Assembly: GCF_002215495.1 (NCBI RefSeq)
Contig: NZ_CP021378.1
Location: 2,976,764 to 3,040,763, forward strand
Length of the DNA stretch: 64,000 nucleotides
DNA from: Porphyrobacter sp. CACIAM 03H1
Lineage (GTDB): Bacteria > Pseudomonadota > Alphaproteobacteria > Sphingomonadales > Sphingomonadaceae
Reading direction: 5' to 3'
The notes below the pieces were generated by a model. That model did no database searches, was not told the origin of the DNA, and saw only the letters and a program-made list of their open reading frames with translations. The translations under genes and the position numbers were made by a program. Below are positions 37,903-63,057 of the stretch, in pieces (the stretch's first letter is position 1; the number at the start of each line of letters is the position of its first letter).

Positions 37903-38115
37903 CCCGCTTCTCCTTGGAACATAGAGGAAACACTTGGGTTGGGCTAGGCAAAAACGACCAGCACCCATACGTGCCCGTCAACTCCGAGCTCTCTCTTCTC
38001 CTTACGACGACTACGGATTGGGGAGGCAAAGTGAACCGAATTGTTCCTACACAGCCAAGTGAGGACCTTCGTTTACCGATTGCCGCCCTCTAGCTCTCGT
38101 GACTACAAGCACTTG

Positions 38116-41100
38116 ATGGCAATGGGGCAGGACAGAATCGAAGTGTTCATCGCCGAATGGCGCGAAACGGGTGGGTCCGAACTCGCCAACACGCAATCTT
38201 TCATCCACGGCTTGGCCAATCTCCTAGGTGTCGACCCGCCTCGGGGTGCCAAGGCCGATGACGCGACCAACGACTACGTCTTTGAACGCCGCGTCTTTCA
38301 GGACAATGGCGACGGCACAACCAGCTTCGGCCGGATCGACTGCTACAAGCGCGGCTGTTTCATCCTCGAAGCCAAGCAGGGCAGCGAAGCTGACCGGGCT
38401 GCTGCCGACAAGGGCGAGGACGATCTCGACATCTTCGGCCAGACCGCCAAAACCCGCGTCGCCCGCGGCACCGCCCGGCGCGGCACGCCGGGATGGGCCA
38501 AAGCGATGGTTCAGGCCAAGGGCCAGGCCGAACGCTACGCCAAGGCGCTCCCCATCGATCATGGCTGGCCGCCGTTTCTGCTCGTTGCTGACATCGGTTA
38601 TTGCATCGAGGTCTATGCCGACTTCACCGGCACCGGCAAAGCCTACGCACAGTTCCCCGACCGGGCGCGCTACCGGATCATGCTGGAGGACCTGCGCGAC
38701 GAGGATGTGCGCGATCGCCTGCGCGCCGTCTGGACCGATCCCAAGGGCCTCGATCCCACCGCCCGCGCCGCCCGCGTCACCCGCGATATTGCCGATCTGC
38801 TCGCCACCGTCGCCCGCCGGCTAGAAAAGCGTGGCTACGATGCCGAGACCACCAGCGGTTTCCTCATGCGGGTGCTGTTCACGATGTTCGCCGAGGACAG
38901 CAAGCTGATCCCCGAGGGCAGCTTCACCCAGCTCCTCAAGAACCAGCGCGCCCACCCGGAACATCTCGAACACCAGCTTTCCGCGCTGTGGGCGGCGATG
39001 GACAAGGGCGAGTTCTCGCCCGCGCTCGGCGTGCCGCTCAGGAAGTTCAACGGCTACCTCTTCAAGGAGCGCACCGCCCTGCCCCTCGATGCCGAGGAGC
39101 TGGAGGTGCTGATCCAGGCCGCCGAACACGTCTGGACCGAGGTTGAACCCGCAATCTTCGGCACCCTGCTCGAACGCGCGCTCAATCCCAAGGAGCGGGC
39201 CAAGCTCGGCGCCCATTACACCCCGCGCGCCTATGTCGAGCGGCTGATCGGCCCCACCATCATGGAACCGCTGCGCGCCGATTGGGACGGGGTGCGCGGG
39301 GCAGCCGCCACCCTGATCGAAGAGGGCAAGGCGGACGAGGCCAAGGCCTTCGTCGAGGCGTTTCATTCCCGGCTTGCCCAGACGAAGGTCCTTGATCCCG
39401 CCTGCGGCACCGGCAACTTCCTTTATGTCGCCATGGCGCGCATGAAGGAACTGGAGGGCGAGGTGCTCGATCTGCTGGTCGAGCTGGGCGACGACCAGTA
39501 TGTCGCCGAGCTCACCGGCCACACCATCACGCCCGAAAACTTCCTCGGCATCGAGATCAACCCGCGCGCCGCCGCAATTGCGCAGCTGGTCCTGTGGATC
39601 GGCTACCTGCAATGGCATTTCCGGGTGAACGGTGCGGATCGCACCCCGCCCGAGCCGATCCTGCGCGACGTAAAGACAATCGAGAACCGCGACGCCCTCA
39701 TCGAGTGGGACGAGAAGGTCGCGGAGCTGGACGAGGATGGAAATCCCGTCACCCGGTGGGACGGCGAGACGATGAAAGAGCACCCCGTCACTGGCAAGAA
39801 GGTGCCCGACGAGACGGCGCGGGTGGTGGTCTACCGCTATGTGAAGCCACGCGCGGCGAAGTGGCCCAAGGCGGATTTCATTGTCGGCAACCCGCCATTT
39901 CACGGAGCAAGGACAGTCAGGGCTACGAATCCGGTCGGCTATATCGAAGCAGTTCGGCAGGTGTACGACATCGTCCCCGAAAACGCCGACTTCGTGATGT
40001 TCTGGTGGCACAAGGCGGCAATCGCTACGGCGAACGCCTCAACAGTTCGCTTGGGCTTCATCACCACCAAAAGCATCACTCAATCGTTTTCTCGGACGGT
40101 CATGGCGAGTCACATGGCTGATAAACGTCGAGTTTCAATCGTTTTTGCCATCCCCAATCACCCGTGGATCGATGAAGCGGACGGTGCTGACGTAAGGGTT
40201 GCGTTCACGGTTGCTGCATCGGGCAAGCAAACTGGACGGAAACTCGAAGTTTTGATCGAACGGCCCATAGCTGAAGGGGCATTCGAAGTTGAGTTCGCCG
40301 AAACTCATGGGCTCATCAGTCCCAGCCTCAGAACGGAAGTTGACCTTCAAGAAGCAAAGACACTTCGAGCTAACTCTGACGTCTCGTCTGTCGGATTTCA
40401 ACTGACTGGGAAAGGCTTCGTAGTTGGAGAAGAGCTAATCTCGGAACTCAGTGACGCAGAGCGGCAATCTTTTGTTTTCTCTTTGCTCGGCGCTCGGGAA
40501 ATCGTGCAAACGCGCCTTCAGCGGCGTGTCATCGACGTCTGTGAAGTCGTGAGCGAGGCTGACTTAAGGAGAGCCTCTCCCACGATTTATCAGCACCTTG
40601 TGAACTCCGTGAAACCAGAGCGCGACGTAAATGCGCGAAAATCCGTTCGCGAGAAGTGGTGGGTTTATGGCGAAGCAAGGAACACATTTCGGCCTGCCCT
40701 CAAAGGACTGGCGAGCCAGATCGTAACTCCCCTCACTGCCAAGCATCGAGTATTTGTCGTCGAACCTGTGTCGACGCGTGCTGATAGCACGTGTGTGTGC
40801 ATCGCATTAGACGACCACTATTTTCTCGGCATTCTCAGCAGCCGTATCCATCTCGTTTGGGCACTCGCGAATGGTGGGCGACTGGGTGTGGGCGACGACC
40901 CACGCTATTTGAAAGGCGAATGCTTCGATCCCTTCCCCTTCCCCGCAGACGTTCCAGAACCGCTCAAGGACAAGATCCGCGCCGAGGCAGAGGCACTCGA
41001 TGCGCTGCGCAAGCGGGTGCTCGAAAGCCATGAGGATCTGACCCTCACCAAGCTCTACAACGTGCTCGAAGCCCTGCGCGAGGGTCGCGCGCTGACCGAT

Positions 41101-41577
41101 GCCGAGCGCGACATGCATGATCGCGGCCTCGTCACCCTGATCCGCCAGCACCACGACGCCATCGATGCGCTGGTAGCCGAAGCCTATGGCTGGCCCGCCG
41201 ACCTCTCCGACGAGGAAATCCTCACGCGCCTCGTCGCCCTCAACAAGGAGCGCGCCGCCGAGGAAGCCCGCGGCCTGATCCGCTGGCTGCGCCCCGAATA
41301 TCAGGCGCCGGACTACAAGGCCCCCGTCACCCAGACGCTCGACCTCGGCGAAAGCGCCGCCGTGCTGCCCGACAACGTCATCCCCTGGCCCGGCTCGCTC
41401 CCCGAACAGGTCAGCGCCGTCCAATCCATCCTCACCGCCGCTGCCACGCCCCTCGCCCCGCAAGACGTCGCTCGAGCCTTCAAGGGCAAACGCGCCGCCA
41501 CCGTCCGCCCGGTGCTGGACGCGCTCGCGGGCATCGGCATGGCAAGGCGGCTGAAGGACGGGCGATACGCGGCGTGA
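38116..41577 (+). CDS. MmeI-like (type IIL) fused restriction-modification enzyme
   Basis: A protein of about 1,153 aa that should cut and methylate DNA as a single polypeptide. The N-terminal nuclease-like site is D75 in FGRIDCYKRG with E85-A-K87 in ILEAKQGS (PD-(D/E)xK type). A helical domain follows (about 200-330), then the gamma-class N6-adenine methyltransferase: motif I LDPACGTGNFLY at about residue 426, motif IV N592-PPF. A target-recognition region occupies about residues 595-930, and the C-terminus ends in a winged-helix-like segment (FKGKRAATVRPVLDALAGIGMARRLKDGRYAA). The start is uncertain: ATG 38116 or 38122; a TTG at 38041 is unlikely. The recognition region has clearly lower GC than both flanks. 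Confidence 0.82.
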   Translation: MAMGQDRIEVFIAEWRETGGSELANTQSFIHGLANLLGVDPPRGAKADDATNDYVFERRVFQDNGDGTTSFGRIDCYKRGCFILEAKQGSEADRAAADKGEDDLDIFGQTAKTRVARGTARRGTPGWAKAMVQAKGQAERYAKALPIDHGWPPFLLVADIGYCIEVYADFTGTGKAYAQFPDRARYRIMLEDLRDEDVRDRLRAVWTDPKGLDPTARAARVTRDIADLLATVARRLEKRGYDAETTSGFLMRVLFTMFAEDSKLIPEGSFTQLLKNQRAHPEHLEHQLSALWAAMDKGEFSPALGVPLRKFNGYLFKERTALPLDAEELEVLIQAAEHVWTEVEPAIFGTLLERALNPKERAKLGAHYTPRAYVERLIGPTIMEPLRADWDGVRGAAATLIEEGKADEAKAFVEAFHSRLAQTKVLDPACGTGNFLYVAMARMKELEGEVLDLLVELGDDQYVAELTGHTITPENFLGIEINPRAAAIAQLVLWIGYLQWHFRVNGADRTPPEPILRDVKTIENRDALIEWDEKVAELDEDGNPVTRWDGETMKEHPVTGKKVPDETARVVVYRYVKPRAAKWPKADFIVGNPPFHGARTVRATNPVGYIEAVRQVYDIVPENADFVMFWWHKAAIATANASTVRLGFITTKSITQSFSRTVMASHMADKRRVSIVFAIPNHPWIDEADGADVRVAFTVAASGKQTGRKLEVLIERPIAEGAFEVEFAETHGLISPSLRTEVDLQEAKTLRANSDVSSVGFQLTGKGFVVGEELISELSDAERQSFVFSLLGAREIVQTRLQRRVIDVCEVVSEADLRRASPTIYQHLVNSVKPERDVNARKSVREKWWVYGEARNTFRPALKGLASQIVTPLTAKHRVFVVEPVSTRADSTCVCIALDDHYFLGILSSRIHLVWALANGGRLGVGDDPRYLKGECFDPFPFPADVPEPLKDKIRAEAEALDALRKRVLESHEDLTLTKLYNVLEALREGRALTDAERDMHDRGLVTLIRQHHDAIDALVAEAYGWPADLSDEEILTRLVALNKERAAEEARGLIRWLRPEYQAPDYKAPVTQTLDLGESAAVLPDNVIPWPGSLPEQVSAVQSILTAAATPLAPQDVARAFKGKRAATVRPVLDALAGIGMARRLKDGRYAA

Positions 41578-41580
41578 GCT

Positions 41581-42981
41581 ATGGCGAATAGGAAGAATGA
41601 ACTCCACGCAGACGTTTCGTTTATCTTTGAGGAATGCGCGCGCCTGAACCAATTGGTGAAGGAAGGGAAATTCAGTTCGCTCCCCCGTGAAGACGCGTTT
41701 TGCGACCTCCCTCACCCTACCTACAATTGGCCGAACGGGAAAATGCTCTGCAGCCGCGCAGGATATGACCGGTTAGGGTCTCTTACGCGCACAGCATTAG
41801 CGCGCGCCAACTTGGAGCGGCGCGTGTCCCTTTCATCGGCGCGGAAGGTCCTCGCCGAGATTCTCGTTCGGAAGTTCCTGCGTGAAAAGCGTCCTGTCGA
41901 CATCATGAATGTCGATCGGGCTTTGTCGGAAACAGCGAGGCGATGCGGCAGAAGCTGCGAGGATCTCACACACTTTATTCCTTGCCATCTCATGGCACCA
42001 CAGAGCCCTTCCTCATTTGAGATTGGACCGATCAGATTCCTGAACCAGTCAACGTTCCGGAGCGCACTCGCAGCATCGATCCGATCAAACCGTGGGCTTG
42101 GTCACCAGATGACGCGGCGCACGATTTCGCAGGCAATAGAATACTTCCGCAATTTCGGATGGATCGCCAAAGTGACGGTGATCGGCTGTGACGAGCAGAT
42201 ATCAGAGGCGACAGCAGCCAGAGCTGCATTGGCTGCGCTTAACTGCCTTCATGTCCTGATTGGAGCGGGGCACTCGACAAAAATGCAGGTAGGTGGCCCC
42301 GGACTGGCGAATGATCGCAGAGCCGGCTTCACCGTCAAAGCTGACGGGGCCCTATCTTATATGGTTTCCTACGGCGGGCAGGGCAACGTCGGCTTCGACG
42401 ACAATTGGATGGACCTCTTCTCCGGAGCGGACGCCCAGGAAATCATCGCAAACCTTGGCATCGCCCTCGAACAAGCTGTCAATCCGGCATTGCATCGTCC
42501 GCTCAGCGAAAGGCTACTCGATGCAATGCAGTGGTATGGTGAAGCCGTGAGGGAACCGTCTCAGGGCGCCAAGGCCGTAAAATATGTAACCGCCCTCGAA
42601 CGGATGGTGATGACCGACGAGAAGGATGACATCGCAAGCCTCGTGTCATCGCGAGTTGCTGCGCTCTGCCTAGAAGAACCGACTGTCCACTGTCGGGATC
42701 GTTGGCAGGTCGATGTTCGAAGAGCCTATGATATCCGTTCGAGGCTGGTGCACGGTTCGGTTTCTCCCACATCGGAGATTGTCTTTGAGGGCGTTCGGCT
42801 CGGGTCGCAGCTTGCTCGCAGCACCTTACTGAATGCAGTCAGGCTAATCGGTGCAAAAGGACTGCGTGATGAGGCAGCGACCAATCGGGATCTCGCGCGC
42901 TGGTTCGATGGAATGGTTCGTCACGTAGACGAGGTAATTCTTCAAAGCATTCCTAGGGCTTCGACAATGCCCTTCGCGTGA
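41581..42981 (+). CDS. HEPN-domain protein (Apea-like), likely RNase effector
   Basis: A 466-aa protein, three bases downstream of the restriction-modification gene and therefore probably in its operon. The C-terminal region carries R386-S-R-L-V-H391 in YDIRSRLVHGS, the RxxxxH catalytic motif of HEPN ribonucleases, in the Apea-like context (ALERMVMTDEKDDIASLVSSRVAALCL .. ). The N-terminal two thirds (1-300) are helical and unassigned. HEPN RNases kill or arrest cells upon phage infection or when paired controllers fail. An inactive-toxin or structural HEPN is also possible. Confidence 0.7.
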   Translation: MANRKNELHADVSFIFEECARLNQLVKEGKFSSLPREDAFCDLPHPTYNWPNGKMLCSRAGYDRLGSLTRTALARANLERRVSLSSARKVLAEILVRKFLREKRPVDIMNVDRALSETARRCGRSCEDLTHFIPCHLMAPQSPSSFEIGPIRFLNQSTFRSALAASIRSNRGLGHQMTRRTISQAIEYFRNFGWIAKVTVIGCDEQISEATAARAALAALNCLHVLIGAGHSTKMQVGGPGLANDRRAGFTVKADGALSYMVSYGGQGNVGFDDNWMDLFSGADAQEIIANLGIALEQAVNPALHRPLSERLLDAMQWYGEAVREPSQGAKAVKYVTALERMVMTDEKDDIASLVSSRVAALCLEEPTVHCRDRWQVDVRRAYDIRSRLVHGSVSPTSEIVFEGVRLGSQLARSTLLNAVRLIGAKGLRDEAATNRDLARWFDGMVRHVDEVILQSIPRASTMPFA

Positions 42982-43174: not shown

Positions 43175-43233
43175 CACACCTCCAAAGTGTGAGATGCTTG
43201 CGTTCCAAATTCGCACACGCTAAAGGTGTGCGA
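43175..43233 (+). promoter_or_regulatory. Tandem CACAC-N7-GTGTG inverted repeats at the STAND gene start
   Basis: Site 1 is CACACCTCCAAAGTGTG (43175-43191). Site 2 is CACACGCTAAAGGTGTG (43214-43230), extended to a perfect 8-bp repeat TCGCACAC / GTGTGCGA (43211-43233) that runs into the ATG. The centres are 39 bp apart. Both have identical arms and 7-bp spacers, the look of a dimeric HTH repressor operator. The protein itself starts with an XRE-type HTH, so autoregulation is likely. Confidence 0.65.
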
Positions 43234-46200
43234 TGTTGAACGCTGCGAATAGCCCTCCATACGCTCGTCTGGCCGCGGCTATTGTCGATGCGCGCAAGGC
43301 AATCATGCTCACTCAGGGCGCCCTTGCCAGCGCTTTGGGCGTGCGTCAGCAGTCGGTAAGTCGCTGGGAAGCGGGCACGCACCGTCCATCGATTGATCAG
43401 TTGGCGAACCTTGCGAGCGCCCTCGAGCTCGACTTGGCCGACCTGCGCGAACTCGCTGGCTACGCTGTGACTGCAGCTCCCCGCGCGCCACACCTTCCAT
43501 TTGACAGTCTCGCACCCGAAACATTTGAACAAATCGTAGCTGATCTGCTTCAAGCACAACACCCGAATGCTCAAGTGAGGATCGAGGGCAGCCGTGGCCA
43601 CGACCAGTCAGGCATCGACATCCGGGTGACGTTTGATGACGATCGAGAGTGGGTTGTGCAGTGCAAGCAGGTCGAGCGGTTTGGCCCCGAGAAGGTCCAG
43701 AAGGCTGTGGACGCGGTCGAAGTCCAAGCCGAACGCAAGATCCTTGCTCTAAGTCGCGTTGCAACGCCCAAGGCGGCGGCTGTTCTCCGCGCCCATCCGG
43801 GATGGCAACTCTGGGACAGGGACGATCTGTCCAGGATGATCCGCGCGCTTCCTGGGGTCGATCAAGACCGCATTGTCGACACTTATTTTCCTGGCCAGCG
43901 CATGGCTTTGCTGGGTCGTCGCGAAAGCGGTCCATGGCTGACCGCCGCGCAGTTTTTCGCGCCTTTCGCAAAGCCCGGTGCCTACTTCAATCATGAGTGG
44001 ACGCTCCAGGGAAGAGAAGAACCATTAGCGGCCCTGCTTTCGGCAATCGAAGATCGGGCGCCAGTAACATTGCTGGTCGCCGCAGGCGGCATGGGCAAAT
44101 CGAGGCTGCTGTTGGCCGGGCTAAGCAGTTTCACCAAGTCGTCGCCATCTATCGCGACACACTTCCTGTCGGCAGCACGCGATCCGTCTCGCGAAAGCCT
44201 TGAGGCGCTCGGTCGCGGCGAAAAACTGTTGGTGGTCGACGATGCACACGACCGCGACGGGCTCGCTGTCATTATTGAGTATGCCGCCGATCCGGCAAAT
44301 CGCGCACGGCTCCTGTTTGCGACGCGTCCCTACGGACTCCAGCGGCTGCGCAATGACCTCCAGCGTTTTGGATTTACCCACCCGGTGGAAATTGAACTTG
44401 GGCGCCTACCTCTCAGGTCAGTCGAAGCAATTGTTGCCGAGGTGCTCAAGAAAAATGATGCCAATCCGGCCTATGCTGAACCTGTCGCGAGCATTGCCCC
44501 CGACAACCCGCTCATTGCGACTATGGCTGCACGGGTGGTCGCCACGGGGAACCTGAGCGTGGCCCAAACGCGCAACCACACCGAGTTGCGCGAAATGGTG
44601 GTGAGCAAATTCGCCGATGCCATCGCTGGCAGCGTAGGAGAACCGGCGGACGCTGCACTGCTGCGCGCGATGCTCGAACTCATCGCGGTCATGCAACCGG
44701 TCCATCTCAATGATCGCCGCCTTGGCGAGCTGTTCGAGGCGACGACCGAGTTTTCCGCCTCACAGGCGACGCGCGCCCTGAAAATTCTGATCAGAGGCGG
44801 TGTCGTCTACAAACGCGGCGCTGCCTATAGGCTCATGCCCGATGTACTTGGGGACTATCTGATCGATGAGAGCTGCGTCGAGGATGATGGGACGCTTACA
44901 CCTTTTGCAGAAAAGGTGATCGCATCAGTCGGTCGCGAGCAGCTCGAACAGGTTATGGTCAATCTTGGTCGCATGGACTGGCGCCGCAACGATGGAGATC
45001 CCGCTAACAGTAATCTGCTTGATCGCGCCTGGGCGCGACTTGACGACGTGGATGGCCCTTATGACCCTCGTTTCGGTGCCGTACGTGCGGTCGCGATGTA
45101 CCAACCTCGGCAGGCGCTTGCCTATGTCCAACGCCATCTGCACAAGGGCGATGTTGCTCGCGAGCTAACTCCGATCCTGCGCAACATCGCCTACGCTCCG
45201 GACTATTTGCCAACTGTCTGCCGCCTTCTTTGGGAGATGGGACGCGACGACAAGCGCCCACTGGGTCAGCACCCAAATCATCCGATCCGAGTGCTTGCAG
45301 AGCTATGCCAATTCGACGAGTACAAGTCGTTCGAATTCTCAGAGAAGGTCGCCAACTTCGCCTTCGAACTTATCGCCAGCGGCAAAGCCTGGAGGCATCA
45401 TTACTCGCCGCTTGATATTCTCGCGCCGCTGCTTTCGGGAGTTGTCGAGGCCAATCGCGATCATGGTCGTTCGATCTCGCTCAGCCGATACTTTCTTTCC
45501 TACGACTTCGCCTGGCCGCTCCGCTCTCGTGTGATCGGCTCGGTCATCGAGCTTCTGTCCCACCCCGATAGCGCCGTCGCGGTTCGCGCGGGCAATCTCG
45601 TCAGCGACATGGTCAGGCTGCCGATGGGTTTCGGAAGCTGGGCACCAGAAGCTGACTTGCGCCGGAAATATGACGCGGAATTCACGACAACAATGGCACG
45701 TTTGCAGGAACGCGTGGCTTCAGGCGCACTCGCAAATGCGACGATGATCACGATCGCTCAGGCGGTGGAGTGGCATGCCCGATACATGAAGGGCAATCTG
45801 CGGAAGGCGTCACGTGCCATATTGGCAGCGCTGCCGGACACACTGGAATTCCGGCTGCGGGCCGCTCTCGTGGAAGGCGCGCAACGCGCCTTTCGCGGAC
45901 AAGTGGATTTTGACGAATGGTCACCGGAGAACCCGTGGCTCGACGCGCTCGTTCTCGAACTCAAGAGGACTTACGGAAGCGCCGATGCCGTGCTCGTTGC
46001 GGTCGCAAACGCAATGGGCGAGCTGAGCGACGCTGGCCTCAAGCCGAGCGCTGCCCACGTGCTTGTCGCCAAACTGGTCGACGACGATCTTGAATTGGCC
46101 GAATGCCTCGTCGAACATAGTCATGTGTCGGACTCGATCTGGCGACCCTATGCCTTCTCTGGCATCCGCGAATTGCTCGATCGAGATCCCGAGCGCGGTC

Positions 46201-47255
46201 GCGTGATCGTTGGGTCTGCGCTAGCCGAGGCTGATGCCGATCCGCACTTGGCGAAGAGCGCCGCATCGACGCTCGGTGGTCTGCGTCGTGCGCTCGATCC
46301 AGCTGACATTACGCTCCTGCGGAACAGCATTTCCAGCCCACATGAAGCGGTGGTTGTTGCCGGACTGAATGCGGTCCAATGGAACAGCTCCGTGGATCAC
46401 AAAGCTGCGTTCGAGCTGCTGATGCTGGCGCCCTTCGGGCTCAGTGAGCATGTGCTTACTACTGCAGCGCACCTTTTGCATAATCGCAACCGCAAGCTTT
46501 TCATGCTGCTCGGCCAGGAGGAAGTGGATACGATCCTCAATCGGATACGAGACATCCCCACTCTTCCAGACGATCACTGGGCGGGCGAAATGTTTCGCCA
46601 TCTAGCGGAGCAGTTCCCCTTGTCCTTTGCGCGGTTTCTCCTTGATCGGGCAGATCGTGCGCTTACGAACGATCAGAACGACATCGATTTGGTCGGCTAC
46701 CGTTTTCACGATGGCAAGCTCGGTTTTCATAAGTCGCCGCAGGTCACTGAGGTGCTCGCCTATGCGTGGAGCTGGCTACTCAGCCATGGGCCGGATGATG
46801 GCTATACAATCTATCGCGCGGTCGAAATGTTTGCCTGCATGTTCGACATCGATGCCCGTCCGGTTATCGACTTCTTCGACCTCAGGCTCGACACAGCCTC
46901 TGCGACCGAACTCGGGTTGATCGGCCGTCTGGTGCGCCACTCACACCATTTCTTTGCTTTCGCCGAACAGCCATTCGTTGAGCGGCTGCTCGATCGAGTT
47001 GCTCATGCTGACCCGGCAGAACTTGAGCATGTGCGTGACAGCCTTTGTGCAGCAGCGCTTTCCGGCGTGAAGTCCGGTGTGCGCGGCGAACCCATGCCGC
47101 GCGACCTAGAAGCGAAAGCGAAGGCCGAAGCGGTGTTGTCGCAGCTGTCGCGGTTCTCCCCCGCGTGGCCCGTCTATGAAACCATCCTCACTGCTGCCGA
47201 GCGCGACATTGCGCGTGCCCGGCGTGAAGGGGAGATACTGGACGAATTCGAATGA
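43233..47255 (+). CDS. XRE-HTH / Mrr-like nuclease / STAND ATPase with helical repeats
   Basis: A 1340-aa putative defence protein. Domain order: XRE-type HTH (about residues 10-68, LTQGALASALGVRQQSVSRWEAGTHRP); Mrr/REase-like nuclease (about 90-205, with GHDQSGIDIRV .. WVVQCKQVERF, i.e. D...QxK); P-loop ATPase with Walker A VAAGGMGKSRLLL near 282 and Walker B LLVVDDAHDRDG near 333, then STAND/NACHT-type helices; and a long C-terminal array of helical repeats (about 500-1340) suited to ligand sensing. STAND proteins with N-terminal nucleases (Avs type) sense phage proteins and trigger abortive infection. An N-terminal HTH on such a protein is unusual. It overlaps the next gene by 4 bp. Confidence 0.8.
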   Translation: MLNAANSPPYARLAAAIVDARKAIMLTQGALASALGVRQQSVSRWEAGTHRPSIDQLANLASALELDLADLRELAGYAVTAAPRAPHLPFDSLAPETFEQIVADLLQAQHPNAQVRIEGSRGHDQSGIDIRVTFDDDREWVVQCKQVERFGPEKVQKAVDAVEVQAERKILALSRVATPKAAAVLRAHPGWQLWDRDDLSRMIRALPGVDQDRIVDTYFPGQRMALLGRRESGPWLTAAQFFAPFAKPGAYFNHEWTLQGREEPLAALLSAIEDRAPVTLLVAAGGMGKSRLLLAGLSSFTKSSPSIATHFLSAARDPSRESLEALGRGEKLLVVDDAHDRDGLAVIIEYAADPANRARLLFATRPYGLQRLRNDLQRFGFTHPVEIELGRLPLRSVEAIVAEVLKKNDANPAYAEPVASIAPDNPLIATMAARVVATGNLSVAQTRNHTELREMVVSKFADAIAGSVGEPADAALLRAMLELIAVMQPVHLNDRRLGELFEATTEFSASQATRALKILIRGGVVYKRGAAYRLMPDVLGDYLIDESCVEDDGTLTPFAEKVIASVGREQLEQVMVNLGRMDWRRNDGDPANSNLLDRAWARLDDVDGPYDPRFGAVRAVAMYQPRQALAYVQRHLHKGDVARELTPILRNIAYAPDYLPTVCRLLWEMGRDDKRPLGQHPNHPIRVLAELCQFDEYKSFEFSEKVANFAFELIASGKAWRHHYSPLDILAPLLSGVVEANRDHGRSISLSRYFLSYDFAWPLRSRVIGSVIELLSHPDSAVAVRAGNLVSDMVRLPMGFGSWAPEADLRRKYDAEFTTTMARLQERVASGALANATMITIAQAVEWHARYMKGNLRKASRAILAALPDTLEFRLRAALVEGAQRAFRGQVDFDEWSPENPWLDALVLELKRTYGSADAVLVAVANAMGELSDAGLKPSAAHVLVAKLVDDDLELAECLVEHSHVSDSIWRPYAFSGIRELLDRDPERGRVIVGSALAEADADPHLAKSAASTLGGLRRALDPADITLLRNSISSPHEAVVVAGLNAVQWNSSVDHKAAFELLMLAPFGLSEHVLTTAAHLLHNRNRKLFMLLGQEEVDTILNRIRDIPTLPDDHWAGEMFRHLAEQFPLSFARFLLDRADRALTNDQNDIDLVGYRFHDGKLGFHKSPQVTEVLAYAWSWLLSHGPDDGYTIYRAVEMFACMFDIDARPVIDFFDLRLDTASATELGLIGRLVRHSHHFFAFAEQPFVERLLDRVAHADPAELEHVRDSLCAAALSGVKSGVRGEPMPRDLEAKAKAEAVLSQLSRFSPAWPVYETILTAAERDIARARREGEILDEFE

Positions 47256-47569
47256 CTGATGAGCGCGAGGCGGAACGCTTGCGGCAGGAGCGGGAGACCT
47301 TCGAGGTCCAGAAGTCCCAGAGTCGTTGGTGGTTTGGCTTACGGTTCGCTACGGCGACTACATTGCTGGCACTGGCAATTGGCGTCTTTGTGATTTCCGC
47401 GCTCATCATCCTCTCGCCAGACCGATACTCGCCTGACGCTGTGCTCGGAAGCGGCTTTGTGATGCTGCTCGACTTGGCGGCGCTGGTTGGCGCCGCGCTC
47501 AGCGCCCTGCTCAAGCCGAGCTCGCAGCCCTCACTCAGTCCCGTGACGCACATGTCCGATCGCGACTAG
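47252..47569 (+). CDS. Two-transmembrane small protein coupled to the STAND gene
   Basis: A 105-aa protein with an N-terminal charged helix (DEREAERLRQERETFEVQKSQS, coiled coil) and two hydrophobic segments (about residues 33-53, FATATTLLALAIGVFVISALI, and 65-88). The start overlaps the STAND stop (ATGA), so translation is coupled. It may be the membrane effector, an anchor, or an immunity/accessory protein for the STAND protein. No family is recognised. Confidence 0.7.
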   Translation: MTDEREAERLRQERETFEVQKSQSRWWFGLRFATATTLLALAIGVFVISALIILSPDRYSPDAVLGSGFVMLLDLAALVGAALSALLKPSSQPSLSPVTHMSDRD

Positions 47570-47592: not shown

Positions 47593-49461
47593 TTATGCTT
47601 GAGACGGCAGCACGAACCATGGCGATCGATCGGGAAACAGTAGCGAAGCGACAATCGCAGCCATAGCTTGGCCGGGTCCAGCAGGTTGCTGAAAAACCGG
47701 CCAAGATGTTTCGAGATCGTCCACCGTCCAGATATCGTGGCCGATATGACGTACGACGTTGATACCACGCGAGATTACCTCGTCGGCAAACCCACGATAT
47801 TCGTCTGGGAGATATGCACTGATGGCGAGATGATCGAGCGCGCTCAGCGACAAATCGAACTCTTCGTGAAGGTCGAACAGTCGCGATGCCCGCAGCAAGA
47901 CTGACACCAGCTCAGTCGGTTGTGCAACGAGCTCAAGGTTCGGCTCGCCCGCCAAGTCCATTCGGGAAATAAGGTAGGACAAAATCTTGCTGGGATCGAT
48001 GTCAACTCTCGCGACGCGACCTCGGCATTCGATTGCGGAGGCAAACATATATCCCAGAAGTTGCTCAGCGCTATCGTTCAATGTCGCGTGTTTCGAAGCT
48101 GTGAGCGCAGTCAGAATGTATGGTGCCTGGCAATCGTTCATAGCGACAAGCGACAGGGAATATGTACCCAAGATTCTCCGATAGAGCTCTTCGAGGCGCT
48201 CGGCCGCCGAGGCCATGTCCTGACCGGTGATCAGGCAAGCATGCACGACAAATCCAGCCCAGCCCAGCAACTTCGATAGCCGGATGGGCAGCTGATACAG
48301 TTCCTCCAAGCCCCCGTTAAGAAGAGCGTACTGATAGCCGTCGAGCGCAGAAACGACGTCTGCGATGGCAGTCTCCACCATGCCCGCCAATCTGCCACAA
48401 GCTGCCAGAAGATGGGCCTCAACCATCGGATCGTCCGAGCGTGGCAGCAGCGAGGCCGCGAATGCTGCTCGTACTTCGATTTCCCGGAACCGGTCATTCG
48501 ACTCTCGGGCACGGCTGGCGAATGCCTCTTCAATCCGGCTTACCAAGCCAACAGCCACAAACGCGTCACCGCCAAGGCCCGCCAGCAATGGAGCAAGCCC
48601 ATCGAGCAAGGCGCGAGGCTCCCAGTCATGCGGAAGGTCAACGAACGGCTTCCATAACTTCGGGAGACCCGCTCGGATGACTGCAACACTTCCTGCGTCC
48701 GGCCACCCGACCAGCACGCTTCGTAACGGCGCGTCGTTCGAGCCGGCATGAGGATTGCGGCAAAAGCTCGAAGGTCCGTAGAGGTTCAATCCCCATACGA
48801 CGGGCGTCTGACCGCCAGTGTTGGACACGCGGTCAGAAATGGCTCGGCCGATCTCGGTGAGATCAAGCGCGGGAGTTATGTCCTGAAGGAAAACGTCACC
48901 CCGCACGCAATCAAGAAGGGCGCTCGTTCCGATCCCTCGCCCCGCTTGCTCGATTGCCGACTGCTTCGCTGCAGCAGTTGCAACGAGCGTAACGCCCGGG
49001 GTTCCTATCTCTCCCATCACCTCGGGCTTCAGAATGACGTTGAGATCGGCGATCAGCCCTCCTGCCTCGCATGCGTCAATGAAGATATAGGTCTGCTTTG
49101 GTGCTGCCTCCGCCACCATGCGCAACACGTCGGCCAATGGGAGCGCCGTTGCTGAGAGTCCCAGCGGTCTGGTGTCGCGCAGGGCCATGTAGAAGCTTCC
49201 GGCGGCCACGGTCCCATGTCCAGCGAAGGTGAGCGTCAGCGTATCGAGGGCCCCCAGGTCGAATAGCACCTCCCGCAGCACTGCTCTCACCTCGTCGAGC
49301 CGGGGCGAGAGAAGGACGCGTGACCGGGCAAGGTCGTAATCGCCAATATTTGGAAGCATAAGAGTGCCGAAAACGTCTTTCGCATCCGCTTCACCGCCTG
49401 ACAGCGGAGGCAGGTGGTCATAAGCGTTGCAGCCTATGGCGATGAGCGCACGGCCATTCAT
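47593..49461 (-). CDS. Caspase-like (C14) peptidase with helical C-terminus
   Basis: A 622-aa protein. The N-terminal 230 residues are a caspase/metacaspase-like domain: opening MNGRALIAIGCNAYDHLPPLSGGEADA, catalytic H82 in TLTFAGHGTVAAGSFYMAL, and catalytic C131 in YIFIDACEAGGLIAD. The C-terminal 350 residues are helical and unrecognised. Bacterial caspases occur in several anti-phage systems and cleave effectors or host proteins. It is coupled by a 4-bp overlap to the upstream gene (49458-50099), which I regard as its partner. It converges with the STAND operon (24-bp gap). Confidence 0.82.
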   Translation of the reverse strand: MNGRALIAIGCNAYDHLPPLSGGEADAKDVFGTLMLPNIGDYDLARSRVLLSPRLDEVRAVLREVLFDLGALDTLTLTFAGHGTVAAGSFYMALRDTRPLGLSATALPLADVLRMVAEAAPKQTYIFIDACEAGGLIADLNVILKPEVMGEIGTPGVTLVATAAAKQSAIEQAGRGIGTSALLDCVRGDVFLQDITPALDLTEIGRAISDRVSNTGGQTPVVWGLNLYGPSSFCRNPHAGSNDAPLRSVLVGWPDAGSVAVIRAGLPKLWKPFVDLPHDWEPRALLDGLAPLLAGLGGDAFVAVGLVSRIEEAFASRARESNDRFREIEVRAAFAASLLPRSDDPMVEAHLLAACGRLAGMVETAIADVVSALDGYQYALLNGGLEELYQLPIRLSKLLGWAGFVVHACLITGQDMASAAERLEELYRRILGTYSLSLVAMNDCQAPYILTALTASKHATLNDSAEQLLGYMFASAIECRGRVARVDIDPSKILSYLISRMDLAGEPNLELVAQPTELVSVLLRASRLFDLHEEFDLSLSALDHLAISAYLPDEYRGFADEVISRGINVVRHIGHDIWTVDDLETSWPVFQQPAGPGQAMAAIVASLLFPDRSPWFVLPSQA

Positions 49462-50099
49462 TGATCCGCGACCTTGAACTTCGCGCGGCGATCAGCTTCA
49501 CGGTCAAGCGCTTGCTGTGACTTCTCGTGCTTCAGTCTTTCGAATTCTGCGGCGAGTTCGGGGTCCATGGTTTCCATGGCGTCTACGAGTTTCTCGAACG
49601 CCTCAGAGCCAGCGTGAATCTGCGGCATGACGACATTTCCGTCCCGATCCACGCCAAGCTCGATCTTCGCCATCATTTCTATCATCGACGCCGCGACCGA
49701 CCCGGCAGCTTGTGCATCCACGACGTTTCCGACTTGCTCGGCGGCAGCGCCGACTACTCCATAAATGTTCTGCGCAAACTGCCTCGCCATGTCCTCGTTC
49801 ACTGGAACAAGTGAGCGTCCGATCAGAGTGAGATCGTTCTCGACGAGATCCTTGAACGGAATAAGCCATTCTGAGGAAATTCGGTGGATCGATACATCAC
49901 CGGAATTCTCACGCAGAATTGGAGCCATCGATTGCCCATGCGTCATCCTCATTATGTTATGGGGGCTGACATACGCTGCTCTCGCGCGCTCCTGCAGCAT
50001 TGCCATTAGCTTCGTAACGGCAAGATCGAAGCCTTCGCTCTCCCTCGGACGCACAAAGCAGAAGACCCTTGGGTCTGGCGGTTCTTGGTGTTGGTCCAC
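49458..50099 (-). CDS. Unknown 213-aa protein coupled to the caspase-like gene
   Basis: No family is recognised. It starts MDQHQEPPDPRVFCFVRPRESEGFDLAVTKLMAMLQERA. A central small-residue-rich helical segment (FAQNIYGVVGAAAEQVGNVVDAQAAGSVAASMIEMMAKIELGV) is followed by a charged C-terminus (ERLKHEKSQQALDREADRRAKFKVADQ). No signal peptide is seen. It is the first gene of the caspase operon (4-bp overlap), so it may be the sensor, substrate or regulator of the protease. Shared promoter region with the divergent S24 repressor (262-bp gap). Confidence 0.7.
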   Translation of the reverse strand: MDQHQEPPDPRVFCFVRPRESEGFDLAVTKLMAMLQERARAAYVSPHNIMRMTHGQSMAPILRENSGDVSIHRISSEWLIPFKDLVENDLTLIGRSLVPVNEDMARQFAQNIYGVVGAAAEQVGNVVDAQAAGSVAASMIEMMAKIELGVDRDGNVVMPQIHAGSEAFEKLVDAMETMDPELAAEFERLKHEKSQQALDREADRRAKFKVADQ

Positions 50100-60337: not shown

Positions 60338-61282
60338 TCACCCGGGCGGCGCTTTCGGCGACGTGCCGAGCGGCCCGCGGCGATCGACAATGGTGATCCT
60401 CCGCGCCTTGGCTTCGATCACCAGACGTTCAAGGACGCCGTTACCCGGGAAGGCGACGACGTAGCGCGGATCAAGCGAGAGCATCCGCTCGTTGCGCTTG
60501 AAGCCGGCACGGGCGCCGAGACGCATGTCGAGCGAGAACGTGACCTGCGGGATACCGCGACGTTCGGCCCAGCTCGATGCCAAGCGGTCGACGCCCTTGG
60601 TGTCGCCGCCATGGATGAGCACCATGTCGGGAACACGGTCGCGGACCTTGTCGAGGGTGGCCCAGACGTTGTTGCCGAAGATCAGTGCATCGTCTTCGGT
60701 GGCATGACGGGTGCGCCCGCCAGCGAAGACGATCGGGGTTCCTTCGGGCACCGCTGCACGGCGCTTGGCCTCGGCACGAGCACGCAGGAAATCGCGACCT
60801 TCGACGAGCGCAGAAGTCATCATGGCGCTGTGATTGAAGCGCGAACTGGAGACCGGCTTCCAGGAGGAACCAAACTCATTGAGGTACAGGGCTGCTGCGA
60901 CTTCGCGCATCTCTTCGAGCGCCAGCATCGCACTTTCGGCGCACTGAGCTCGCTCGACCTGGGTCTCAAGGTCATGGGTGTGGACCTCGGATCCGTCGGC
61001 CGTCGCAATCAGCGCGCGGACCTCGTCGGTTGCCCGGTCGAGGGCCGTCGATTTGCGGGTCGCAGAACGGTGGAAGATGTTGACGAAGGCCCAGCCAAGA
61101 TCCTCGGCATCGGCTTCGAGAGCGGTCCCGGACACCATGGCGAAAAGATCGGACCACACCGCTTCGAGGGTTTGGACGACAGCTTCGCGGACCGGGAAAT
61201 CGCTGGTCGATACGGGGGCAGGACCGATGGAGAAGCCGGCCAGATCGAGCGCGGCGAGTTGATCGGCAAATGACGTGTGCAT
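60338..61282 (-). CDS. DUF2493 (SLOG-fold) domain protein
   Basis: A 314-aa protein. The C-terminal part (about residues 175-300) carries IVFAGGRTRHATEDDALIFGNNV .. MVLIHGGDTKGVDRLASSWAERRGIPQVTFSLD, the DUF2493 pattern that belongs to the SLOG (YspA-like) nucleotide-ligand-binding superfamily. The N-terminal half is helical. Such genes are common on plasmids of sphingomonads. SLOG proteins sense or metabolise nucleotide signals; a role in defence or establishment is possible but not shown. The start at 61282 is supported by GGAGGATATTCCC. Confidence 0.82.
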   Translation of the reverse strand: MHTSFADQLAALDLAGFSIGPAPVSTSDFPVREAVVQTLEAVWSDLFAMVSGTALEADAEDLGWAFVNIFHRSATRKSTALDRATDEVRALIATADGSEVHTHDLETQVERAQCAESAMLALEEMREVAAALYLNEFGSSWKPVSSSRFNHSAMMTSALVEGRDFLRARAEAKRRAAVPEGTPIVFAGGRTRHATEDDALIFGNNVWATLDKVRDRVPDMVLIHGGDTKGVDRLASSWAERRGIPQVTFSLDMRLGARAGFKRNERMLSLDPRYVVAFPGNGVLERLVIEAKARRITIVDRRGPLGTSPKAPPG

Positions 61283-61584
61283 GGGAATATCCTCCTGACT
61301 GGCGTGAGGCCGGCGCATCCGTTCATGGCTGCGCCAGCGAGAGCCCGTCAGGGCCAGCTTCAGGCAGGATTGCGCACCCGTCAGGGGAAACCCGGCTTGG
61401 CGGGCTGGCGCGGGCAGGCCTTGAGCCTGAAGGGCGAAGGCCAACACGGGCCCGGCCTAGCCGGGTTGCGCAAGGCTGGCGGCTGGCCCAGGGCCTCTCT
61501 CGCATGGCGCCAGACCATGAGCGGGTGGCAAAGCTCAGTCAGGGATGGCAACCCAACGCTCTGGGCATGACCAACTCGCGGATC
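61283..61584. other. 302-bp intergenic stretch, GC-rich, no supported gene
   Basis: Between the DUF2493 gene and the 140-aa gene, both minus strand. A CCCGGC-CTA-GCCGGG hairpin (61451-61465) is visible, with no U-tract. It looks like a leader for the downstream gene. Confidence 0.4.
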
Positions 61585-62018: not shown

Positions 62019-62960
62019 TCAGGCCGCAAGCGCAGCGTCGTCTGACGCGTCGCCAAATTGCTCGGGAATGATCTTCCCGCCGAGCTTCAGCAGCAGGCTC
62101 GAAGCTTCCTCGGCCTTGGCGGCAGCGGTCAGGATCGCGCGGTCATCGTCTTTCAGTAGCCTGAGCCAATGTTCGATATAGCTCGCGTGGCTGTCGAGAT
62201 GTGTGACCGGCAGACCCAGCTCGGCGCCCAGCATGGCGCTGGAGAGTTCGGCGACCAGTTCCTCGGCGGCATAGGCAGCCGTACCGAAACGGTTCTTGAG
62301 ATCACGTCCCAGACGGCTGGCATGGCCTGTCCAGTGCGACAGCTCGTGGGCGAGCGTGGCGTAGTAATGATCGAACCCGTTGAACAGGCTGACCGGCGGC
62401 ATCGTGACGCGATCCGCACTTGGTTCGTAATAGGCCTCGCAGCCCTGATGGCGCAGATTGACCGGGATGGCGGCGAAGAAGGCGTCGAGCTCGGCTTCCC
62501 GCCCTTCAGGCTCGACCAGTTCGAGCGTCGCGGCTGGATGGAAGCGCTCGGGCAGACCTTCCACCTGATCAGCATTGAAGACCGGATAGGCTTTCAGCAC
62601 CCGGCGGGCTTCGTCGGTCTTTTCGCCGGTATCGGGGGCTTCCACCTCCTTGGTGTAGCTCTTGTAGAAGATTGCGATGGTCGACTTCTCGCCCTTGCGG
62701 ACCTGGGCTCCGAGCGATTTTGCCTGGTTGTAGGTCATCCAGAATGGCGAGGCGTAGCCGCACATGTCGGCGACCATCCAGAGCCAGAACACGTTCATCC
62801 CGCGGTACGGGATCCCGCAGGCCCGCAAGGGCCGGGAGACCGGGACACCGCGCCACGGCTTGATCCACGGCTTCGTGCCTGCTTCCAGACGGGCGATGAT
62901 TTCCTGGGTGATACGGGCGGCGGGCGACAGGCCGCCGCCCTGCTCCTTGCGATAGGCCAT
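62019..62960 (-). CDS. ardC: ArdC-like antirestriction protein
   Basis: A 313-aa protein. The N-terminal ArdC-type ssDNA-binding region runs through about residue 150 (ITQEIIARLEAGTKPWIKPWRGVPVSRPLRACGIPYRGMNVFWL), and the C-terminal metallopeptidase-like domain includes HELSHWTGHASRL and EELVAELSSAML, i.e. a zincin HExxH site with a distal Glu. ArdC proteins protect incoming plasmid DNA from restriction in the recipient. The start at 62960 is preceded by TCAGGAGAACCATC. It lies downstream of the ParB gene and its terminator. Confidence 0.87.
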   Translation of the reverse strand: MAYRKEQGGGLSPAARITQEIIARLEAGTKPWIKPWRGVPVSRPLRACGIPYRGMNVFWLWMVADMCGYASPFWMTYNQAKSLGAQVRKGEKSTIAIFYKSYTKEVEAPDTGEKTDEARRVLKAYPVFNADQVEGLPERFHPAATLELVEPEGREAELDAFFAAIPVNLRHQGCEAYYEPSADRVTMPPVSLFNGFDHYYATLAHELSHWTGHASRLGRDLKNRFGTAAYAAEELVAELSSAMLGAELGLPVTHLDSHASYIEHWLRLLKDDDRAILTAAAKAEEASSLLLKLGGKIIPEQFGDASDDAALAA

Positions 62961-63057
62961 GATGGTTCTCCTGATTGAGGCATCTGGACAGTCGGCGACA
63001 GGTTCGCCGGTCAGTGCCACAGGCTCACGGGCCCCCTCTGCTCTGCTTCCAAGAAGG

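Follow-up and report, generated by a model that had tools for sequence, protein, structure and literature searches.

The stretch of DNA analysed here, 64,000 nucleotides of Porphyrobacter sp. CACIAM 03H1 (contig NZ_CP021378.1, positions 2,976,764 to 3,040,763; hereafter the window), encodes a protein of 1340 amino acids (aa) that joins an XRE-type helix-turn-helix (HTH), an Mrr-like nuclease, a STAND NTPase and an alpha-solenoid in a single chain, and whose gene is preceded by two palindromes predicted to be its operators. We give a probability of roughly two in three to the reading that this is a one-protein, NLR-like anti-phage nuclease keeping itself scarce, which in one clade would form a membrane-bound complex with a small protein of two transmembrane (TM) helices. 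Self-repression of the STAND gene by its own HTH is strongly supported by computation on the sequences, and a function in phage defence is what we infer by analogy with related systems. How lethal immune nucleases are silenced and raised on demand is an open question, and a receptor that contains its own repressor and has a predicted operator in several phyla would allow it to be put to the test with a single gene and a single promoter.

Architecture and predicted self-repression

Pfam, the Walker motifs and AlphaFold2 agree on the one-chain architecture that an earlier note on this DNA had read from the letters (Table 1). The predicted models are compatible with an HTH, a nuclease, an NTPase, a winged helix and an alpha-solenoid, with a predicted local distance difference test score (pLDDT) of 88.7 for residues 1-600 and 90.1 for residues 501-1340. 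Fold matches of the NTPase part in the PDB include Apaf-1, NLRC4 and Avs5; the nSTAND models of Pfam match the protein weakly, below cut-off. The tail matches HEAT/ARM proteins, among them importins, CAND1 and PP2A, a common arrangement to which we attach no functional meaning. Mrr_N, the DNA reader domain of Mrr type IV restriction enzymes, is absent from the ten Pfam families matched to E 0.1, the N-terminus being HTH_3. Matches to RmrA, capH and similar PADLOC models cover the HTH region only and were set aside; weak PADLOC matches fall at residues 972-1157 (OloA, E 7e-5) and 90-165 (PDC-S73, E 5.5e-5).

A protein search (7994 scored candidates) returned 165 homologues at E <=1e-3, of which 120 are listed. 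Most of these (113 of 120) are 1300-1380 aa long, and an HTH is annotated for 113 in the precomputed Pfam column, so that the fusion of an N-terminal HTH to the nuclease, an arrangement which the earlier note did not recognise from known systems, is a feature of the family. The annotation is lacking in P0016, P0046, P0061, P0068, P0069, P0080 and P0097; P0068 is the protein of locus L004 with a late start, its HTH being encoded upstream, and P0080 starts inside the HTH. Because homologues of the same architecture occur in several phyla, chance is excluded. In an alignment of 94 rows (the window's fragment and 93 of the 120 homologues; the 27 omitted include the seven without HTH annotation), E99, D129, Q143, C144 and K145 of the nuclease and G288, K289, D336 and D337 of the Walker motifs are identical throughout, and the same residues, apart from E99 in two loci, are kept in the rows of 32 loci. 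The nuclease is thus not degenerate across the family, as the earlier note had allowed that it might prove, and its intact catalytic motif makes it a credible effector. In alignment A1 (28 rows), the HTH, the nuclease, the NTPase core and the winged helix are highly conserved, and conservation reaches its minimum at residues 901-1200, which matches the expectation for a sensor.

The family is sparse and patchy: when 84,980 species genomes were scanned with two patterns, at least 34 loci came up, in proteobacteria, actinobacteria, an acidobacterium and other hosts, and Porphyrobacter sp. CACIAM 03H1 is the sole carrier among 196 genomes of its order and 385 of its class. A homologue is carried by a complete Kutzneria chromosome. 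Four plasmid records have a match, two of them covering at least 80% of the query; one of these two, L038, is without HTH and divergent at its 3' end, and was excluded from all counts.

The predicted operator palindrome ACWCATNNNATGWGT lies at the start of the STAND gene. Of the two sites listed in Table 1, the distal one begins with the first base of the stretch that the earlier note described, and the proximal one ends 2 bases before the ATG. By position weight matrix (PWM), the proximal palindrome is the top site of the 64-kb window (13.2 bits against 9.1 for the best elsewhere). CACACN7GTGTG occurs at two places in the 3.5-Mb genome, both before the STAND gene, and the reversed control pattern at none; this uniqueness is that of the strict pattern, the only form searched genome-wide. 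Within the window, the looser AC[AT]CN7G[AT]GT is found at the two operator places only.

Short palindromes recur in the upstream sequences of the family loci, a simple palindrome pattern being present in 23 of 31 upstream regions and in 651 of 6200 random regions. A symmetric PWM, seeded from the same sequences, was trained with each tested locus and its near-copies left out; L012, L027, L029, L035 and L038 were excluded. In 27 of 32 loci, the best site of the whole locus (7-64 kb) fell inside the 150-base region surrounding the gene start, and 23 of 32 had two sites above 6 bits there, at a spacing that is not fixed (19 to 39 bases between site starts). Unsupervised motif learning, free of any seed and judged by prediction across clades, yielded nACACATnnnATGTGTn from 11 alphaproteobacterial loci; this motif is top-ranked in 15 of the 21 remaining loci, second in L010, third in L025 and far off in four loci with an altered recognition helix. 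In the reverse test, the motif from those 21 loci ranks first in 10 of the 11 alphaproteobacterial ones, the exception being L011. The same procedure on displaced controls gave 0/21 (1500 bases downstream), 0/20 (1500 bases upstream) and 0/21 (3000 bases downstream), 0/62 in total.

The loci that fail by PWM are L011, L024, L026, L031 and L032. The recognition helix is changed in four of these five (L024 QQAVSGWE, L026 RQAIGRWE, L031 ARTVLSWE, L032 RQTVDRWE), and all 27 PWM-positive loci have the helix QQ..(S/T)(R/K)WE; for helix change against missing site, Fisher p is 1.4e-4, uncorrected for relatedness (L024 and L026 are sisters). L011 has an unchanged helix and two 14-base versions of the operator, one base shorter mid-site. 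The best sigma-70-like -10 hexamer starts 5 bases into an operator in 10 of 28 scanned loci (L003, L004, L008, L009, L010, L016, L018, L022, L030 and L034, of which four are near-copies). The palindromes, the way they co-vary with the recognition helix, and the uniqueness of the site in its own genome argue that the HTH would let the sensor repress its own gene, as the earlier note had supposed.

The two-TM partner and its relatives

The stop codon of the STAND gene was correctly read as overlapping a small two-TM gene, the overlap being of 4 bases (a shared ATGA). The hydrophobic stretches of its product peak at about residues 36-55 and 69-87. Downstream genes were counted in 32 loci (the window, 30 of L002-L034, and L037; L005, L027 and L029 end too near, and L035 is not included), and a member of the two-TM family is present in six of them (the window, L002, L003, L004, L008 and L013), each pair overlapping exactly by ATGA or GTGA. 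By a tree of 33 rows, these six belong to a single, fully supported alphaproteobacterial clade that also contains L037, which has a gene for 406 aa at the two-TM position. The pairing was not found beyond this clade, and because it is found in one clade only, which is the earlier note's own test of refutation, the two-TM protein is regarded as an accessory, which may be an anchor, an effector or an inhibitor. The alphaproteobacterial loci L006, L007, L011 and L014 have a different small open reading frame (ORF) with one TM helix right at the STAND stop, and these are alike in two Bradyrhizobium loci. L034, counted as having none, shows a 42-codon TTG frame and an overlapping 70-codon frame, both with a single hydrophobic stretch.

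By profile search, 32 two-TM proteins were found, including the window's own cluster P0129; for six of the 32, the longest contig equals that of a listed STAND homologue (46501, 9236, 32272, 29369, 149316, 5449). Six positions are invariant in 34 of 34 rows, including the Asp in the second TM helix. No convincing Pfam family was found among 25 of 48 families listed, nor a PADLOC one among those listed; on the same Pfam list, S_4TM matches five of the 34 members, with a best E of 0.19, and the window's own protein has two Pfam matches below cut-off, neither of them SLATT or S_4TM.

Relatives of the two-TM protein were also found away from STAND genes. Besides its own gene, the search gave one other in 385 genomes of the class (G196), one other in 398 of the phylum (G1053) and none in 396 of the order, and there was one match among viral contigs (L042). 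Against the STAND profile, G196 and G1053 show nothing longer than matches of HTH size, and the viral record shows no match. In all three loci the preceding gene encodes a TIR protein (TIR_2 E-values 7.4e-29, 2.3e-9 and 1.6e-25; the TIR frame of L042 starts late and its match begins at profile position 26), with gene overlaps of 4, 4 and 8 bases (L039:1411-2570, L042:5327-6318, L045:1471-2563). When the translations were inspected by eye, the C-terminus of the TIR partners reads as two hydrophobic helices. Since relatives follow TIR proteins, the two-TM protein is not restricted to the STAND nuclease. It looks like a membrane module that may be exchanged among systems of bacterial immunity, although a sample of three loci is small and there may be further partners. 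The two-TM and TIR queries had no match in plasmids and phages. The L042 pair lies between genes that read like tail genes, the TIR protein of L045 also matches DUF2335, and L039 has a third gene with a weak match to a TIR effector model (E 4.9e-7).

Mechanism, alternatives and known systems

At rest, HTH dimers are predicted from comparative genomics to occupy the two palindromic operators before their own start codon, and this occupancy would keep the toxic nuclease low. The solenoid may recognise a trigger, probably a phage protein. As in the STAND/Avs family, the STAND module would then exchange its nucleotide and oligomerise, and the clustered Mrr domains would cut DNA and end the infection or the cell. 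In the one alphaproteobacterial clade, gene overlap and module exchange suggest that the translationally coupled two-TM protein and the receptor would form a membrane-bound complex, and related two-TM proteins may form like complexes with TIR proteins elsewhere. A bolder version, which we put forward only tentatively and hold to be somewhat unlikely, makes of the locus a self-amplifying switch. Two operators would hold four HTHs, matching the four-fold assembly of Avs proteins; activation would remove the HTH dimers from the operators, so that sensing would derepress the gene and flood the cell with nuclease; and the two-TM protein, as a general membrane module of immunity that moves between NLR-type nucleases and TIR effectors, would position either at the membrane, where phage DNA enters.

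Several observations weigh against a self-repressed defence nuclease with a membrane partner. The nuclease residue E99 is Q in the sister homologues L015 and L034, with the D and QCK residues kept. The PWM lead of the operator is narrow in L002 (11.2 against 10.6) and in L010 (14.5 against 13.2), and the score in L025 is only 7.1. The best -10 hexamer is not at operator offset 5 in 18 of 28 loci, the window included, and no good sigma-70 promoter was found in the window, the best candidate (7 of 12 matches) lying inside the gene. No relative was found in viral contigs by STAND alignment or in phage records by protein, among large neighbours picked in other loci, 12 of 18 have no PADLOC match at 1e-10, and a coupled membrane gene was not counted in 22 of 32 loci.

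This last count bears also on the view that killing is done mainly by the two-TM protein, through membrane damage, with the nuclease as a second arm. TIR proteins have a related partner and all 34 rows share the Asp of TM2, as that view would have it, but 22 of 32 loci showed no coupled membrane gene while the nuclease is kept in the family, and we consider it unlikely. The HTH might instead mainly steer or activate the nuclease on DNA, in a restriction-like recognition of which the promoter sites would be a by-product. It does adjoin the Mrr domain, and Mrr-type enzymes have their DNA-reading and catalytic domains side by side; however, in 27 of 32 loci the gene's own start is where the best palindrome lies, the strict form is found only there in its own genome, and no neighbour gene, a methylase included, is common to more than three of 33 loci, which makes steering quite unlikely. 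Conjugation genes in the window, and a Rhizobium etli copy on a plasmid typed as conjugative, would suit a selfish stabiliser of a conjugative element with no part in phage defence. This we find improbable, as copies are also found on contigs, beside varied defence genes, and on the complete Kutzneria chromosome, and no antitoxin-like neighbour is common to more than three loci. Finally, a STAND transcription regulator of other mobile-element genes, with a vestigial nuclease, is highly improbable in view of catalytic residues invariant in 94 rows, of the lack of a third CACACN7GTGTG in the genome (strict form only) and of the two sole occurrences of AC[AT]CN7G[AT]GT in the window.

Read as a self-repressed defence nuclease, the protein is most closely filed with the Avs-like STAND nucleases, as a new variant with a putative kinship to Avs4. 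Avs4 has an N-terminal Mrr nuclease, and its C-terminal sensor binds the phage portal. The Avs4/AVAST STAND nucleases (PDB 8dgf, 8dgc) are alike in their N-terminal nuclease, STAND NTPase and long C-terminal repeats. Foldseek matched Avs4 at E 4.2e-7 (TM-score 0.33 by query length) and Avs3 at E 9.7e-8; no PDB chain matches the protein by phmmer at E 0.1, no Avs chain is among the best 60 of 103 profile matches, and no AVAST model is among 17 PADLOC matches at E 0.1. Unlike Avs4, the present family has an N-terminal XRE HTH with a conserved predicted operator, a HEAT/ARM-like tail and, in one clade, a two-TM partner. The XRE repressors of 434 and P22 c2 (PDB 1per, 2r1j) have an HTH fold alike by sequence, and the 434 type shares the QQ of the recognition helix and ACA...TGT half-sites, whereas the HTH here is the head of a 1340-aa protein.

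Avs nucleases are already in print (PMC12931631). Mrr_cat-STAND proteins of a P4-satellite hotspot share the Mrr_cat effector before the STAND NTPase and the C-terminal repeats; the passage on them names no HTH, operator or membrane partner, and the likeness is by description only (PMC9122126). In Caulobacter, the CARD-NLR system LypABC, toxic when overproduced, is repressed by the XRE protein CdxB (PMC13236601). Both would be toxic NLR-like systems silenced by an XRE-family repressor, but CdxB is a separate protein, whereas here a single chain would serve as repressor, sensor and effector. SLATT 2TM effectors and EACC1 systems likewise have small membrane proteins coupled to immune proteins (PMC7159879), whereas the present two-TM family is without convincing Pfam or PADLOC match among the families listed. 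Among the papers listed from the open-licence PMC literature, none was recognised as describing the HTH-Mrr-STAND fusion, its operator, the shared two-TM partner, or the TIR and two-TM pair.

Genomic surroundings

Table 1. Features of the locus and its neighbours in the window
Feature	Position	Strand	Basis
MmeI-like type IIG restriction-methylase, with the next gene	38041-42981	+	PADLOC 1467 bits
Distal predicted operator palindrome CACACCTCCAAAGTGTG	43175..43191		leave-one-out PWM 9.9 bits; CACACN7GTGTG
Proximal predicted operator palindrome CACACGCTAAAGGTGTG	43214..43230		PWM 13.2 bits; CACACN7GTGTG
HTH-Mrr-STAND-solenoid protein, 1340 aa	43233..47255	+	ORF, Pfam, homologues, AlphaFold2
XRE/HTH_3 domain, residues 19-71, recognition helix QQSVSRWE	43287..43445	+	Pfam HTH_3 E 1.5e-11, above cut-off
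Mrr_cat nuclease domain, residues 91-203; E99, D129, Q143-C144-K145	43503..43841	+	Pfam Mrr_cat E 1.2e-12, above cut-off
STAND NTPase and winged helix, residues ~232-600; Walker A AGGMGKS, Walker B LVVDDAHD	43926..45032	+	motifs, fold matches
Alpha-solenoid, HEAT/ARM-like, residues 601-1340, presumed sensor	45033..47252	+	model, PDB matches
Two-TM partner, 105 aa; LRQERExF...WF, Asp in TM2	47252..47569	+	ORF, family alignment; 4-base overlap with STAND gene
Caspase-like gene and 213-aa gene	47593-49461, 49458-50099	-	4-base overlap; convergent to STAND pair
YAcAr/SLOG-domain protein	60341-61447	-	
ArdC-like anti-restriction protein	62022-63020	-	

Upstream of the STAND gene, the type IIG restriction-methylase is followed after 3 bases by a gene for a 466-aa protein that has no Pfam, NCBIfam or PADLOC match to E 0.1. 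The caspase-like gene downstream, on the opposite strand, matches Peptidase_C14 at E 4.9e-9, above the Pfam cut-off, and the EACC1-associated caspase model of NCBIfam (NF047832) at 69.3 bits, below its cut-off of 140. The 213-aa gene that it overlaps has no family above cut-off, and the two possibly form a second immune module. The window also encodes TraG_N, a TrwB-type coupling protein, a MobF relaxase and the ArdC-like protein, and these conjugation genes lead us to read the STAND locus as cargo of a conjugative element.

Six of the 18 large neighbours have PADLOC matches at 1e-10: a type I restriction endonuclease (L009), MzaA (L034), PD-Lambda-4_A (L003), PDC-S73 (L007) and GajA with GajB (L037). 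Besides the STAND and two-TM genes, six neighbour clusters are shared, none of them in more than three of 33 loci. L037 is the R. etli plasmid pRetIE4771e mentioned above, where a Gabija pair, a HEPN-associated gene and the STAND gene with a strong operator pair are followed by the 406-aa gene (L037:3057-13256), for which no Pfam family was matched. About 18 kb past the end of the window, a weak integrase match (23.1 bits, below cut-off) lies near a tRNA-Ser (G000:C1:3058750-3059145, L051:1988-2077), a spot that could mark an end of the conjugative element.
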